DNA of 37,647 nucleotides. Source: Gammaproteobacteria bacterium. Lineage in GTDB: Bacteria; Pseudomonadota; Gammaproteobacteria; AKS1. A model generated the notes under the pieces. The model had not been told where the DNA came from, did not search any database, and was given only the letters and a program-made list of their open reading frames with translations. A program made the position numbers and the translations under genes. Shown piece after piece: positions 22,636 to 29,552 of the stretch (positions are counted from its first letter, which is position 1; each line of letters begins with the position of its first letter). The stretch spans positions 1-37,647 of the forward strand of contig JALTKS010000102.1 of the NCBI GenBank assembly GCA_027006175.1. The letters run 5' to 3'.

Positions 22636-24771
22636 TTATTTACTATCAAGTGTATTGACAGTGTCCCAGTCACTGGCCGGTGGGTTTTCAATATAAGCTC
22701 TGGCTCGAAGTGAGAATTTTTCAGAAACAAGATCACCTTGTTGTGCAAGTTGCTTGAATTGTTCATAAGCAGTTTTAAAGTCGCGGAGTCGATAATTACC
22801 GAGTGCTGTGGCAAAGTGTTGAAGTAAATCCTGATTGTTAGCCATCTCAGTATGTAGAGGTTCATAGATAGTCGTCGGTGTTGCTTTACCCTTAACGCGA
22901 ACAGTATCAAGTTCTCTGACCGAAATTTTATTACCACACTGTTGAATGCTTGTATCGCTGGCGATGATACTGGTACCGTACATTTTATTAACACCTTCCA
23001 GACGTGCAGCAAGATTGACCGCATCGCCGATAATTGTATAGTTAAGACGGTTCGAAGAGCCAATATTTCCAACTAGCATCATGCCGGTGTTAATGCCTAT
23101 GCGAGCTGATACATTCAGACCTCCCGGCAAATTAAAACTGTCTTTAAGTTGTTTAAGCCTTTTGTCACAGGCAATTGCAGATTCAACAGCATGTAATGCA
23201 TGTTGAGGATCATGTTGTGGTGCACCAAACACGGCGATGATGGCATCACCAACATATTTATCAACGAAGCCACCGTGTTCTTTAACAATTCGTGTCATGG
23301 CATCAAAGTATTGATTCAAGAAGTCGACAAGCTGCTGCGGATCAAGCTTCTCTGAAATGCTAGTAAAGCCAGCGATATCAGAAAACCAGACAGTTAATTC
23401 CCTTTCTTCACCACCTAACTCTGGACTATCACCCTCTTTCATCATTTGATCGATGACAGCAGGTTCAAGATAAAGACCAAAAGCGCGTTTAATAATACGT
23501 TTGTCTTTATCGGCAACAATAAAACGAAAACCAAGTGTTGCAGATAAAGTAATGGCAGCGGCAATGATTGGGTCAATTAAGGGAAGAACGAGTCCCTGAT
23601 TGAAATTAATAACAACGAGTATTATCCATAAAACGACACTGGCAAAAACAGCAACAATTAATCGAACAGGAGTCAGTAATAAAGTAAATAGAGCGACAGC
23701 CAATGCCAGTGGAAAGGATAACAGTGCATAGGTAATTGCCGGAGTTTCGGTGAGAGCATTTTTATGTAAAATATTGTTGATGGCTTGCGCGTGAATATAG
23801 ACACCTGAGATATCATCACGTATTTCAGTACTTGCATATTTGTTTGCATCATAGGGAAGAATGCAGCGTTCGGGTACGTTTAAACCTTCCCGTGAATTTG
23901 CAAGATGAGATGCCGCTTTTTTTCTGTCTTCAAGCCCCAGTACTGCCCCGAGTATGACGACTTTGTTTTTAAAATGACGTTTAAAATAATCGGTATTACC
24001 TTTTTGGCTACAGGCATAGATATCAGCAAGAGAGTAGCTCGGAATAAAATCAGGCTGAGTATTGAAATTAATCAACATGGTATTGTCTGATGTAACAGGG
24101 ACGTTGTAGCCATTAATAATAAGAGGCTTGTTACGGACAAATTTAACTTTTTCATTACTTGCGCGAGCAGCAAGTTCAACAGCCATCGAGGGATCGGTTC
24201 TGTTTCCTTGATCAAACCATAATGGCAGGTCGCGAATGATACCGTCGTCATCTCTGGAGTGGTTTCCAAGATTTAACAGGCGTATATTTTTTTCATTGCC
24301 TACAGCAAAGCTATGTCCGGGGTAAGGTTTGACTGGCTTGCCAAAATGCTGAACCTTACCCAGTACGAGCTTACCACTGCGACCATATTTATAGAGTGTT
24401 CTGAGGAAAGCTTTATCATAGCCTTTAAACCTGGATTCGACGCTAGTAGGTAAAACAATATCAAAAGCAAAAACCTTGGCGCCACCTTGCATGATTGAAG
24501 AAATGACCTCTGCATATTGGGGGGTCCACATTACACGCGGTGTTTCAACAAAACCCGGTTGTTGATACGTTTCTTCATCAATCGCCAGAATCACAACATC
24601 GGATTCTTTTTCTGATGCTATTAAACCGGGAAAGTTTTGTTGAAGTGTATGCCGTAACCAGAACAAGGTATCTAAAGATGTTTTTTCCAGACGTTGAGTA
24701 AACGGCATCGACATGATCAGGCTTGCAACAAGCGCAATAGCACCCGCGATTATGATATGCCGTATCTTCAT
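22636..24771 (-). CDS. CHASE2-domain class III adenylate cyclase
   Basis: A 711-residue membrane protein. After a signal-anchor helix (residues 8-25) comes a large periplasmic CHASE2 sensory domain (to about 340), then about three closely spaced membrane helices (about 345-425), then a cytoplasmic class III cyclase domain. The catalytic domain shows both metal aspartates (FSDIAGFTS and VGDAIIAVFG), the adenine-selecting lysine in DKYVGD, the paired aspartate in IIGDAVNLAAR and the transition-state Asn/Arg in the same segment. It should therefore make cyclic AMP. A short helical tail follows. The upstream FecR-domain gene ends 3 bases before it, so the two are co-transcribed. Confidence 0.93.
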   Translation of the reverse strand: MKIRHIIIAGAIALVASLIMSMPFTQRLEKTSLDTLFWLRHTLQQNFPGLIASEKESDVVILAIDEETYQQPGFVETPRVMWTPQYAEVISSIMQGGAKVFAFDIVLPTSVESRFKGYDKAFLRTLYKYGRSGKLVLGKVQHFGKPVKPYPGHSFAVGNEKNIRLLNLGNHSRDDDGIIRDLPLWFDQGNRTDPSMAVELAARASNEKVKFVRNKPLIINGYNVPVTSDNTMLINFNTQPDFIPSYSLADIYACSQKGNTDYFKRHFKNKVVILGAVLGLEDRKKAASHLANSREGLNVPERCILPYDANKYASTEIRDDISGVYIHAQAINNILHKNALTETPAITYALLSFPLALAVALFTLLLTPVRLIVAVFASVVLWIILVVINFNQGLVLPLIDPIIAAAITLSATLGFRFIVADKDKRIIKRAFGLYLEPAVIDQMMKEGDSPELGGEERELTVWFSDIAGFTSISEKLDPQQLVDFLNQYFDAMTRIVKEHGGFVDKYVGDAIIAVFGAPQHDPQHALHAVESAIACDKRLKQLKDSFNLPGGLNVSARIGINTGMMLVGNIGSSNRLNYTIIGDAVNLAARLEGVNKMYGTSIIASDTSIQQCGNKISVRELDTVRVKGKATPTTIYEPLHTEMANNQDLLQHFATALGNYRLRDFKTAYEQFKQLAQQGDLVSEKFSLRARAYIENPPASDWDTVNTLDSK

Positions 24772-24774
24772 GGT

Positions 24775-25431
24775 TTATAGATCGATTAGTCGAGAAACAA
24801 TAGGGATGGCGCCTTTTTCGGCATATTTATCGACTTTGAATGTTTTACTTTTACCGCCTTTAACAACAATTCTATAGACGCCACCTAAAGACAAAGAAAT
24901 GTTTTTAGATGCCAGATCGATGTGTTTACCTTTTAGCTGGTAAGTATATTGTTTTTCATGTTGATCGGTACGTTCGATGGTTATGTTCGCATTTGATTTT
25001 TTTAAACGAATAACCGGAGATGTTCCATAAATCGTTAAATCAGGATTACGAATGCCTATTTTTGACTTTGGAGCTCCACGGAAGGCCAGTGCACCACTTG
25101 TTGCTGCAACTTGCCCAGTAAGATTTGCATTACCACCATCACACTCCACGTCTTCACGCAGCAATTGACCTTTTATAACATTACTTTGTAGAGAACCAAC
25201 GGTGACTGTTCCGCCTGTAATTGTTTCGCGTCGGCATGAGTTAAGATAGCCAATGATCAGCTTGCCTTTACTACCCAGTTTAATAACATGCCCTTCATTG
25301 ACGTAGTCCATAAACGATAAGGAGCTGTTTTGTGCCTGTATCTCTTCAATGATTGCGACAGGTGCGCTGTCAGCAAAAGAATTGATATTACTGAGCAATA
25401 AAGTGACTGCAGCAATAGTATGGATTTTCAT
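24775..25431 (-). CDS. Exported FecR-domain protein
   Basis: A 218-residue protein with an N-terminal signal peptide (MKIHTIAAVTLLLSNINSFA). The first half resembles a FecR domain (about 28-75: VNEGHVIKLGSKGKLIIGYL), including a pair of cysteines at NSCRR and EDVEC that could form a disulfide in the periplasm. The second half is beta-rich with many Lys and Ile residues and no domain I recognise. It lacks the membrane anchor of FecR anti-sigma regulators. It lies 3 bases upstream of the CHASE2 cyclase, so it may be a periplasmic ligand or partner of the CHASE2 domain; this is inference. Confidence 0.8.
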   Translation of the reverse strand: MKIHTIAAVTLLLSNINSFADSAPVAIIEEIQAQNSSLSFMDYVNEGHVIKLGSKGKLIIGYLNSCRRETITGGTVTVGSLQSNVIKGQLLREDVECDGGNANLTGQVAATSGALAFRGAPKSKIGIRNPDLTIYGTSPVIRLKKSNANITIERTDQHEKQYTYQLKGKHIDLASKNISLSLGGVYRIVVKGGKSKTFKVDKYAEKGAIPIVSRLIDL

Positions 25432-25472
25432 TGGTTTTCCTTTTAATAAGGCTATACTTAGCCATTAATATA

Positions 25473-25505
25473 GCAATATTAACGTATTTTGCAGGTTAAT
25501 ATTGC
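25473..25505. promoter_or_regulatory. Perfect 10-bp dyad between fecR-like and caspase-like genes
   Basis: GCAATATTAA (25473-25482) and TTAATATTGC (25496-25505) are exact reverse complements 13 bases apart, centred about 58 bases upstream of the FecR-type start and 66 bases upstream of the caspase-type start. The AT-rich arms and absence of a T-run make an operator more likely than a terminator. It could co-regulate both divergent transcripts. Confidence 0.6.
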
Positions 25506-25554
25506 ACACAGATGACGATAATTGTTTATCCTGATTATTTAGGGCAAATGGAAT

Positions 25555-27153
25555 ATGCGCAACATACCAGTACTGGCAACTTTTTTAGGTTTATTTCTTG
25601 CAGCAACATCGCTATTTGCTGCGGTTCCTTATGATCTTGAGCTTGGACGCTATAATGCGCTGATTATTTCAAACCAGAATTACAAACAGCTTTCACCTTT
25701 AAAGACACCACACGGTGATGCCGATGCCCTGGCGACACTATTGCGTTCCGATTATGGTTTTAAGGTCACGATGTTACGTGATACAAATCGCGCAGGAACC
25801 CTTGATGCCCTGGATCAATTAGTTGAAAAATTAACCCCTAATGATAATTTATTGATTTTCTACGCAGGTCATGGGCACCTGGATTCCGCAACGGGTGAAG
25901 GTTACTGGTTGCCGGTGACGGCGAGCCCAAAGCGTCGTTCTGAGTGGATATCTAATAGTGATATCACCGACACGTTACGTGCCACCGTTGCCAAACATGT
26001 GTTGGTGATTTCGGATAGTTGTTTTTCCGGGACATTGAGTCGTAGTGCTGCGGCAGGTTTGAATGTGGGCAGCGATAAACGTGATTACTACAAGAAATTA
26101 GCAACGCGAACTTCTCGCACCGCATTAAGTTCAGGTGGTCTGGAACCGGTTGATGACGGAGGGACAAGTGGTCATTCTGTTTTTGCAGGGGCGTTGATCT
26201 CGGCGCTACGTCGAAATAACGAACCGATTCTTGAGGCAGAAAGTTTATATACTCAAATTAAACGACCTGTGGCACTGAATTCATCGGCTATACAAAAACC
26301 CCAGTATTCAGATGTACGTGCGACGGGGCATGATGAAGGTGACTTCCTGTTTGCTAAACGTAATATTCGTAAAGTAGAAAAACCGATTGTTGCCACGACA
26401 GCATCGACAACGGCTTCAACAAGTATAAATACACAGGCGGCCTATGAGCTGGCATTCTGGGACAGTATTAAAGATAGTCAGGACCCAGGTGATTTCAGGG
26501 CGTATCTTGAAAATTATTCTCAGGGAAAATTTGTCGCATTGGCAAATTTGCGAATAAAGAAATTATCTAAATCGGCTCAAACTAATAAGAACACATTGGA
26601 ACCGGAAAAAGCTGATAGTGATTCAGGTATTGTTAATGAGGCTAAAGTAATTCCTCGTGTAGCATCGGTTAAAAATTTGCAGCCTGAGTCAAGTCGTAAA
26701 GATGTTCAACAGGGTGAAAATGTTCTGGTTGTATTGGCAACGCCCGACAGTGAATATTCACCTAAATATAAGACTATTGAGGCTTATTCAAACGCAATTG
26801 CCGATTTAGTGACAAGTTCTTTTAAAGGACAATCATTGCTTTATTTGCCAAGGCAAAATATTGCTCAAGGTGTTGTTAATGAAGATGATAGTCACCTGGT
26901 AAGCAAGCAATTATGCCAACGACATCAAGCCCGGAGTGTCATTAGTATTGAACTGGATTTATCGCGAGATATTGAAGAACTATCCCGGACACCGGATGAT
27001 CTTTATTTGGGGTTTTTTGATTGTAAAAATAATAATTACAAGATAACTAGATACAATCTTGATTTTAAATTAAATGAAGAGTTTGCTTATGCAGCAGGGA
27101 TACGCAGTAGTCTGGAACGTTTTAGTAAAAAATATCGATTAGCAGATAAATAA
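25555..27153 (+). CDS. Exported caspase-like (peptidase C14) protein
   Basis: A 532-residue protein with a signal peptide (about 1-22, ending SLFA). A caspase-fold domain follows (about 32-265). The catalytic histidine is in YAGHG (His106) and the cysteine in DSCFSG (Cys156), so the site looks intact. Later conserved parts are SGGLEPVDDGG, GHSVFAGALISAL and the closing GDFLFAKR. Next is a short repeat-type motif, AFWDSIKDSQDPGDFRAYLE (about 300-320), often found in caspase-like and Sel1-type envelope proteins, then a charged linker. A final domain of about 150 residues (from roughly 385) is one I do not recognise. It is divergent from the FecR/cyclase pair and ends in a terminator shared with rpoH. 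Confidence 0.88.
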   Translation: MRNIPVLATFLGLFLAATSLFAAVPYDLELGRYNALIISNQNYKQLSPLKTPHGDADALATLLRSDYGFKVTMLRDTNRAGTLDALDQLVEKLTPNDNLLIFYAGHGHLDSATGEGYWLPVTASPKRRSEWISNSDITDTLRATVAKHVLVISDSCFSGTLSRSAAAGLNVGSDKRDYYKKLATRTSRTALSSGGLEPVDDGGTSGHSVFAGALISALRRNNEPILEAESLYTQIKRPVALNSSAIQKPQYSDVRATGHDEGDFLFAKRNIRKVEKPIVATTASTTASTSINTQAAYELAFWDSIKDSQDPGDFRAYLENYSQGKFVALANLRIKKLSKSAQTNKNTLEPEKADSDSGIVNEAKVIPRVASVKNLQPESSRKDVQQGENVLVVLATPDSEYSPKYKTIEAYSNAIADLVTSSFKGQSLLYLPRQNIAQGVVNEDDSHLVSKQLCQRHQARSVISIELDLSRDIEELSRTPDDLYLGFFDCKNNNYKITRYNLDFKLNEEFAYAAGIRSSLERFSKKYRLADK

Positions 27154-27198: not shown

Positions 27199-28050
27199 TT
27201 AATCCATCAAGGCAGTACGCATTTTCTGCATAGCGGCTTTTTCTAACTGGCGTACTCGTTCAGCAGAAATACTGTAACGATCAGCCAAATCATGCAGTGT
27301 TAATTTCTTTTCAGATAACCAGCGACTATTGAGAATGTCGCGACTACGGTCATCAAGTGTTTCAAGTGCTGTTGCCAGACGACCATTATTGTGATCACTC
27401 CAGTCAGCTGCTTCCAGTACCTTGGAAGGTTCGTCACTCATGTCTTCCAGGAACTGTGAAGGTGCAACGTAGAAACTGTCATCGTCATCATCATTGTAAC
27501 CATCGAAGGCCATATCACGACTTGATAAACGTGTTTCCATTTCCAGAACAGTTTCTGGTTTAACACCTAGTTCACTGGCAACGGTTTGTACTTCATCGTT
27601 AGTGAACCAGCCAAGACGCTTTTTATTCTTGCGTAAGTTAAAGAATAATTTGCGTTGGGCTTTAGTGGTTGCAACCTTAACAATGCGCCAGTTTTTCAGA
27701 ATGTATTCGTGCATCTCGGCGCGAATCCAGTGTACAGCGAAAGAAACCAGACGCACACCAACACTTGGGTCGAAACGTTTTACCGCTTTCATTAACCCAA
27801 TATTACCTTCTTGAATAAGGTCGGCGATATTAAGTCCGTAACCTGAGTAGCCACGTGCAACGTGAATTACAAAACGCAGATGCGGAAGAATGAGTTTACG
27901 AGCCGCTTCTACATTACCATTCTCCTGTAGGTCAACGGCAAGCGCGCGCTCTTCCTCAGCGGTCAACATAGGCACGCTGTTGGCAGTGGTGATGTAACCC
28001 GAAATGTTACCGGTCGGGACAGCTAATTGTAGTTGCATGGCGTTATCCAT
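27199..28050 (-). CDS. rpoH: RNA polymerase heat-shock sigma factor RpoH (sigma-32)
   Basis: A 283-residue group 3-like sigma factor. Region 2 shows [36 protein letters not shown] and [20 protein letters not shown]. The diagnostic RpoH box [10 protein letters not shown] follows, then region 3 and a region 4 helix-turn-helix ending [15 protein letters not shown] chose ATG 28050 (protein MDNAMQLQ) because AGG of GCGAGG is nine bases upstream. An ATG nine bases earlier would abut that sequence. In this class rpoH usually lies just after ftsX, but here a REC-REC-GGDEF gene lies between. A CIRCE-type operator sits upstream. Confidence 0.96.
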
Positions 28051-28098
28051 GATTCTCATCCTCGCTAAATGTGTTGGGCGATATATTCGGATATGCTT

Positions 28099-28128
28099 AT
28101 ATTAGCACTCACATAGTGAGAGTGCCAA
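28099..28128 (-). promoter_or_regulatory. Candidate sigma-70 promoter of rpoH
   Basis: On the minus strand TTGGCA (28128-28123; five of six to the -35 consensus) is followed after 18 bases by TAATAT (28104-28099; four of six to the -10). The CIRCE dyad fills the space from the -35 box into the -10 box, so HrcA binding would exclude RNA polymerase. Hexamer assignment is by eye. Confidence 0.5.
28102..28128. promoter_or_regulatory. CIRCE element (HrcA operator) upstream of rpoH
   Basis: TTAGCACTC (28102-28110), a spacer of exactly nine bases, and GAGTGCCAA (28120-28128) match the CIRCE consensus TTAGCACTC-N9-GAGTGCTAA at 17 of 18 positions. The HrcA repressor binds this element at chaperone operons. 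It lies 51 bases upstream of the rpoH start and overlaps the predicted promoter. hrcA itself is not in the window. Confidence 0.9.
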
Positions 28129-28181
28129 TAATAGTATAAGTTCCCGGAAAATGCAGAAAAAAGAGCTAAAAAACTTTCAAA

Positions 28182-29552
28182 TCAAATGGTTATTGACTCT
28201 TTAGGGGGAGGATCCAGGGCGATAGGGCCTTCTTTGCTACCTATATAAACACGGTTTCTGCCGTTCTCCTTAGCCGCGTAGAGGGCTTTATCGGCCAGTG
28301 ACATCAGTTTTGTGATGTCTGCATCAGGGTGATCTGCGCTGCAGGCAACGCCAATACTGAAGGTGACATCAACATTCGCCGGGCAAAGTTTTTCGATGGT
28401 AACGCGGAGCTTATCCGCTTGTTCTGCGGCGCTTAACGCGGTGGTATTTGTCATCACAATTGAAAATTCTTCGCCGCCAAAACGAACCACCATATCGTCA
28501 GGGAAGCTTTCATTTAACTGGGTACCAATACCCGCAAGCACATGGTCACCGGTTAAATGACCAAGTTGATCGTTTATCTTCTTGAAGTGGTCAATATCCA
28601 TAATCATCGCGGAAACAGGCTTATTTGCTTCCTTATTGAGCAATCTATTGCCGTTGTCGAGTAGGAAGCGTTTACTTCTAACGCCGGTCAAACTGTCGGT
28701 TGTAGCAAGTCGGCTCATTTCATCCGTTTGATGCTTGAGAGCGATAAATTGTTGTTTAATCAGTAATAGTGAGCGAATACGGGCAATAAAGATTTCTTCG
28801 TAAATCGGTTTTTGCACAAAGTCATTTGCTCCTGCATGGAAGACTTCGGCTTGTTTTTGCTGGTTATCGGTTACGGTGATAACCAGTACCGGCATTTCCT
28901 GTTGCGAATAATGGAAACGGGTACGAATAGCGTGGAGTAAATCACCACCGGTAAGCTTTCCTTTGAGGAAGAAGTCAGTGACGATGATATCAAAGCCATC
29001 GTCTTCGCTGCCCCAGCCATTGGCAACCCCCTCAAGCAGCTCAAGGGCTTGCTCCGCATGGGTAACATGAACCACTTTCAAGCCATGTTTTTCCATAATT
29101 CGAATGGTGATAGCCGCTGCGGTGGGGCTGTCTTCAACATAGAGAATTTTACCGACTAAGCCGGAATTACGTTGCAAGAAGGATTTAATGAAATCAACAA
29201 AGGCCTTATAGCCACTGGATTTATCAAAATAGTCCGTTACACCCGCGGCAAAGCCTTCGCGTAACAGGCGGCTGTCTGCATCGCCTGAAACGACAATGAC
29301 CGGTGTGTAGTGATGCCGTTCGGATGAGCGGATACGTGTACAGAGATCCAAACCATCCATGTCAGGTAGCATTAATGAGGTGGTGATGAGGTCGAATCGC
29401 TCCCAATTACCAAGCCGTTTTAACGCTTCAGCAGCATTGCCACAAGAGGTAATATTGACGTTTTCGATTTCATTTTTAAGAATGCGAGCGATAATAGTCC
29501 GAGATACCTCAGAACCATCAACGATCATGATGCTGGTTTGACGTTGTTGCAT
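28182..29552 (-). CDS. REC-REC-GGDEF response regulator (diguanylate cyclase)
   Basis: A 456-residue soluble protein with two receiver domains and a GGDEF domain. In the first receiver (about 7-125) the phospho-acceptor aspartate is replaced by Ser59 (TTSLMLPDMDG), although Asp12 and Lys111 remain. The second receiver (about 134-260) is intact: Glu140-Asp141, Asp193 (IVTDFF) and Lys248 (FVQKPI). The cyclase domain has GGEEF at 359-363, but the inhibitory RxxD is missing (Phe350 in place of Arg). It should therefore be activated through receiver 2 and lack I-site feedback. The layout resembles PleD-type regulators. It lies between ftsX and rpoH on the same strand. Confidence 0.9.
   Translation of the reverse strand: MQQRQTSIMIVDGSEVSRTIIARILKNEIENVNITSCGNAAEALKRLGNWERFDLITTSLMLPDMDGLDLCTRIRSSERHHYTPVIVVSGDADSRLLREGFAAGVTDYFDKSSGYKAFVDFIKSFLQRNSGLVGKILYVEDSPTAAAITIRIMEKHGLKVVHVTHAEQALELLEGVANGWGSEDDGFDIIVTDFFLKGKLTGGDLLHAIRTRFHYSQQEMPVLVITVTDNQQKQAEVFHAGANDFVQKPIYEEIFIARIRSLLLIKQQFIALKHQTDEMSRLATTDSLTGVRSKRFLLDNGNRLLNKEANKPVSAMIMDIDHFKKINDQLGHLTGDHVLAGIGTQLNESFPDDMVVRFGGEEFSIVMTNTTALSAAEQADKLRVTIEKLCPANVDVTFSIGVACSADHPDADITKLMSLADKALYAAKENGRNRVYIGSKEGPIALDPPPKESITI

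Follow-up and report, generated by a model that had tools for sequence, protein, structure and literature searches.

In the genome studied here, the promoter of rpoH, the gene for sigma-32, coincides with a CIRCE dyad. This dyad is very probably a genuine HrcA operator built onto a vegetative (sigma-70) rpoH promoter; HrcA binding, repression, dependence on GroEL and the time course are what we infer from it. CIRCE before rpoH is, as far as genome comparison can tell, the usual wiring in the Gammaproteobacteria that carry HrcA.

The window, the whole stretch of 37,647 nt that was analysed, contains a single match to CIRCE (TTAGCACTC-N9-GAGTGCTAA, exact spacing) at three or fewer mismatches, while 100 shuffles gave none (Table 1). 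On the + strand the match is TTAGCACTCACATAGTGAGAGTGCCAA, with 17 of the 18 arm bases as in the consensus and the nine-base spacer exact. Read in the direction of rpoH, it is TTGGCACTC-N9-GAGTGCTAA. With uniform base frequencies, 2.47 Mb should hold about 0.002 sites this close to the consensus (one mismatch or none). The sequence-only reading had claimed a CIRCE with one mismatch and exact N9, 51 bases 5′ of rpoH, and this was confirmed, the distance from the dyad edge to ATG 28050 being 51 nt. Its range, 28099-28128, comprised the dyad and the three bases completing the -10. Promoters and leaders of heat-shock genes are where a CIRCE is expected, and this one falls on the predicted -35 and -10 of rpoH.

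The gene itself encodes a full-length RpoH (406 bits for TIGR02392, cut-off 323). Its likely start is ATG 28050 (MDNAMQLQL), preceded at a plausible distance by AGCGAGGA, which resembles a Shine-Dalgarno sequence. An alternative ATG at 28059 (286 aa) adjoins AGCGAGGA, and the start at 28050 was preferred because of this Shine-Dalgarno position.

Table 1. Features of the rpoH locus, in coordinates of the window
Feature	Position	Strand	Remarks
CIRCE dyad, predicted HrcA operator of rpoH	28102..28128	-	1 mismatch; conserved in genus and class
Predicted -35, TTGGCA	28123..28128	-	First six bases of upstream arm; promoter scan
Predicted -10, TAATAT	28099..28104	-	Extended -10 (TG-C-TAATAT); promoter scan
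rpoH, sigma-32	27199..28050	-	TIGR02392, E 6.9e-122; 283 aa from ATG 28050
PleD-like response regulator with diguanylate cyclase domain	28182..29552	-	Next gene upstream of rpoH

The claimed overlap of the dyad with a -35/-10 pair also held: both hexamers sit within the two arms, the downstream arm supplying TGC and TAA of the extended -10 and the final TAT lying just beyond it. This pair, TTGGCA-18-TAATAT with TG before the -10 (28128 to 28099), was the only sigma-70-like pair in 28030-28260; shuffles averaged 0.5 pairs, and the scan alone is not significant.

Comparison of sites gave a clearer picture. Across 76 rpoH sites, the usual reading of arms plus flank was TTRGCA-18-TAANNT, the -10 hexamer being TAAAAT in 28 and TAATAT in 20; it is an extended -10 wherever the arm is intact, because the TGC of the arm precedes the hexamer. 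A T at +3 past the dyad was present in 73 of the 76 rpoH sites but in only 1 of 16 groESL sites. Of the sites with G at the third arm position, 18 have it in the upstream arm alone, one in the downstream arm alone and one in both arms (binomial p 8e-5, with sites counted without regard to descent). This G turns a -35 of TTAGCA into the better TTGGCA. Such an asymmetry is expected of a -35, and there is no reason for it in a symmetric operator. In G040, a genome with hrcA whose rpoH dyad is gone, the part retained is GAGTGCTAAAAT, the -10 half. In another (G055, locus L110), a perfect CIRCE before rpoH is followed by a partial dyad, TTGGCAGAC-N9-GAGTGCTAATAT, perhaps a tandem promoter-operator.

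The dyad was found before rpoH in all four members of the genus, without mismatch in one of them (G001), so that the comparison of rpoH upstream regions with relatives, proposed in the sequence-only reading, placed it in all three congeners. Across the genus, the aligned arms differed only by A or G at their third position and the -10 flank was invariant, whereas variation was seen in the upstream flank and in the first half of the spacer.

These alignments bear on whether the dyad works at rpoH as it does at groESL. The operator is the same at both genes; at groESL, however, the dyad starts directly after the promoter (CTTGAY ... TATTAT) and so follows the -10, whereas the rpoH dyad holds both hexamers. 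An rpoH promoter just upstream (with TATACT or TATTAT), with CIRCE at the transcription start, would give the groESL layout, which is indeed resembled in our genome, where TATACTATTAT adjoins the dyad. We consider this arrangement improbable: no matching -35 was found, and at rpoH it is the downstream flank that is conserved, whereas the upstream flank is unconserved even within the genus. For an extra promoter adjoining the dyad upstream, our judgement was likewise that it is unlikely, with this flank varying and the scan yielding only the pair fused to the dyad.

Beyond the genus, we compared 53 class genomes in which the sequence upstream of rpoH could be read. Almost every one represents a different family, which is the only correction for phylogeny. 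CIRCE with at most two mismatches preceded rpoH in 29 of the 33 genomes with hrcA and in 5 of the 20 without detected hrcA (Fisher p 6e-6). In four of these five, assembly completeness is only 62-86%, and hrcA could merely have been missed. The fifth (G019, locus L162) is 97% complete and is a real exception, with a one-mismatch CIRCE before rpoH and no hrcA found; either hrcA was lost recently or the dyad is used by another factor. Among the genomes with hrcA, three (G016, G029 and G040) had no CIRCE before rpoH within five mismatches, and the rpoH dyad of G045 had three mismatches. Four loci (L036, L044, L048 and L051), mainly from relatives of Xanthomonas (Luteimonas, Xanthomonas, Lysobacteraceae) with one from Nevskiaceae, have before rpoH a variant of the dyad, one or both of its arms containing GCAGTC/GACTGC; the HrcA there may be of shifted specificity.

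The co-occurrence with hrcA and the sequence-specific match to CIRCE make it very hard to regard the dyad as a transcript hairpin or a chance palindrome unrelated to HrcA. An inverted repeat like this could, by its sequence, fold if transcribed from upstream; its position in the promoter, however, puts it outside the main transcript.

In a second collection of 80 rpoH loci, CIRCE was found at the majority of those from Betaproteobacteria and at many from Gammaproteobacteria, but at none from Vibrio, Photobacterium or enterobacteria. The dyad together with T at +3 was found in 172 of 369 class genomes. When 30 of these loci were inspected, 26 lay just before rpoH, two near groEL and one at hrcA, and the contig of the remaining one was too short. 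The same pattern was rare in 150 genomes of the phylum. There, the inspected loci from other classes were all at groESL (10 of 10), while two further members of the class had it at rpoH. Outside the class, the fused pattern is thus not specific to rpoH, and the rpoH placement was not seen among the few other-class loci inspected. Judged by these loci, the arrangement at rpoH seems characteristic of the Gammaproteobacteria in the wide (GTDB) sense, a reading that is qualified by the CIRCE listed for Geobacter rpoH (PMC545781, Table 8).

Two CIRCEs at three or fewer mismatches were found in the entire genome, before groESL and before rpoH. The groESL site (C74:34165) is perfect, and hrcA is present and complete (TIGR00331, over the cut-off with 325 bits, positions 1-336 of 338), followed in order by grpE, dnaK and dnaJ. 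The sequence-only reading had named hrcA and CIRCEs at groESL and dnaK as things to look for; the first two were there, but the hrcA-grpE-dnaKJ operon has no CIRCE before it at three or fewer mismatches. Instead, a five-mismatch remnant, CGAGCACTC-N9-GAATGTTCA, precedes hrcA. Of the congeners, G001 has one arm left there, while in G002 the dyad can still be recognised, at three mismatches. Because of this series, CIRCE control of hrcA seems to be decaying in the genus, while the groESL and rpoH sites, judged by their mismatches, stay sharp. In our genome (L173, contig C86), the -10 of the hrcA promoter (TATTAT) falls within the spacer of the CIRCE.

The gap between grpE and dnaK contains a perfect sigma-32 promoter, CTTGAA-14-CCCCAT, and the one before grpE scores 10/12; these scores were reached by 0 and 2% of shuffles, respectively. 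A sigma-32-like CTTGAT-14-CCTTAT at groESL is not above shuffles by itself. No sigma-32 promoter above shuffles was found before rpoH, as positive autoregulation would need. Since dnaK has a sigma-32 promoter and no CIRCE, HrcA would act directly on groESL and rpoH and reach dnaK mainly via rpoH or else by controlling hrcA weakly.

HrcA needs GroEL, and heat inactivates HrcA, as established in other bacteria. At low temperature, bound HrcA would cover both hexamers of the rpoH promoter and should directly exclude RNA polymerase, because the arms are the -35 and most of the extended -10. On heating, HrcA would be inactivated as GroEL is drawn off, and transcription of rpoH released. Sigma-32 would then drive dnaK, grpE and probably groESL, until new GroEL reactivates HrcA and both rpoH and groESL are shut down again. 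Control by translation or stability may act on top of HrcA. With hrcA present, the dyad in three congeners and the comparison of sites placing it in the promoter, the proposal of the sequence-only reading that the repressor controls the activator is supported, as a prediction from these sequences.

The operator might be real yet minor, with rpoH mRNA arising mostly by read-through or from other promoters and sigma-32 set by translation and stability. No terminator-like site was found between the diguanylate cyclase gene and rpoH, so transcription may enter rpoH from there, and the gap from that gene to the dyad is short; a basal level of rpoH could come from such read-through. In E. coli, sigma-32 is indeed regulated in that manner. 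However, the operator is strongly and selectively retained where hrcA is kept (the 29 of 33 above), and the leader with the start of rpoH folds no better than shuffles (z 0.85); no thermometer was evident there by this simple fold test, which could miss one. On balance, we regard a minor role as possible but rather doubtful, and prefer an operator that governs the rpoH promoter.

CIRCE before rpoH is already known in kind because it was predicted in Geobacter sulfurreducens (Rodionov et al. 2004, PMC545781, Table 8). The operator sequence and the target are the same, and its position, -51 from the start codon, is similar to that found here. That case, however, is a prediction in one deltaproteobacterium, and the arms are not described as promoter hexamers in the parts of the paper used here, which credit its profiles to Permina (PMC545781). 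HrcA is not mentioned in Leyn 2016. In our search of open-licence papers for HrcA with rpoH, the Geobacter prediction was the only direct precedent. Permina and Gelfand are said to have surveyed these regulons in beta-, gamma- and epsilon-proteobacteria in 2003 and may have listed rpoH sites. No description was found in the open-licence papers of an operator fused with the rpoH promoter, or of the predicted near-universality of such a fusion in HrcA-bearing Gammaproteobacteria.

The control of sigma-32 is taught from E. coli, where it is mainly by translation and protein stability. E. coli rpoH specifies the same sigma factor with the same type of regulon as here, likewise in an ftsY-ftsE-ftsX neighbourhood, but E. 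coli lacks hrcA and was missing among the control matches of our hrcA search. The claimed difference from the E. coli model therefore stands, although not as the departure of one organism, the arrangement being common in HrcA-bearing Gammaproteobacteria. E. coli, without HrcA, looks exceptional, because CIRCE at rpoH is usual where HrcA is kept. We lean slightly towards the broader view that most Gammaproteobacteria still possessing HrcA have an rpoH promoter that is itself an ancestral HrcA operator, with HrcA as a master switch above sigma-32 and the E. coli scheme derived after loss of hrcA. Should CIRCE prove to be the rpoH promoter in every lineage that still has HrcA, the ancestor of the class probably had a repressor-over-activator circuit, of which control of sigma-32 by translation and stability would be the surviving part or the replacement. 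Members of the class that have hrcA and can be cultured would allow a direct test of this prediction.

Further upstream of rpoH on the same strand, the diguanylate cyclase gene is preceded by ftsX, ftsE and ftsY. Each of the four genus members has its orthologue at the rpoH locus, and genes like it are found there in several other families; at the closest match (L002), ftsX lies directly upstream of rpoH with no diguanylate cyclase gene between. Elsewhere in the window (22636-27153), there are genes for a probable membrane-bound nucleotide cyclase (711 aa) and a 218-aa secreted-looking protein without an NCBIfam family, and a caspase-domain protein is encoded on the opposite strand in the same cluster.
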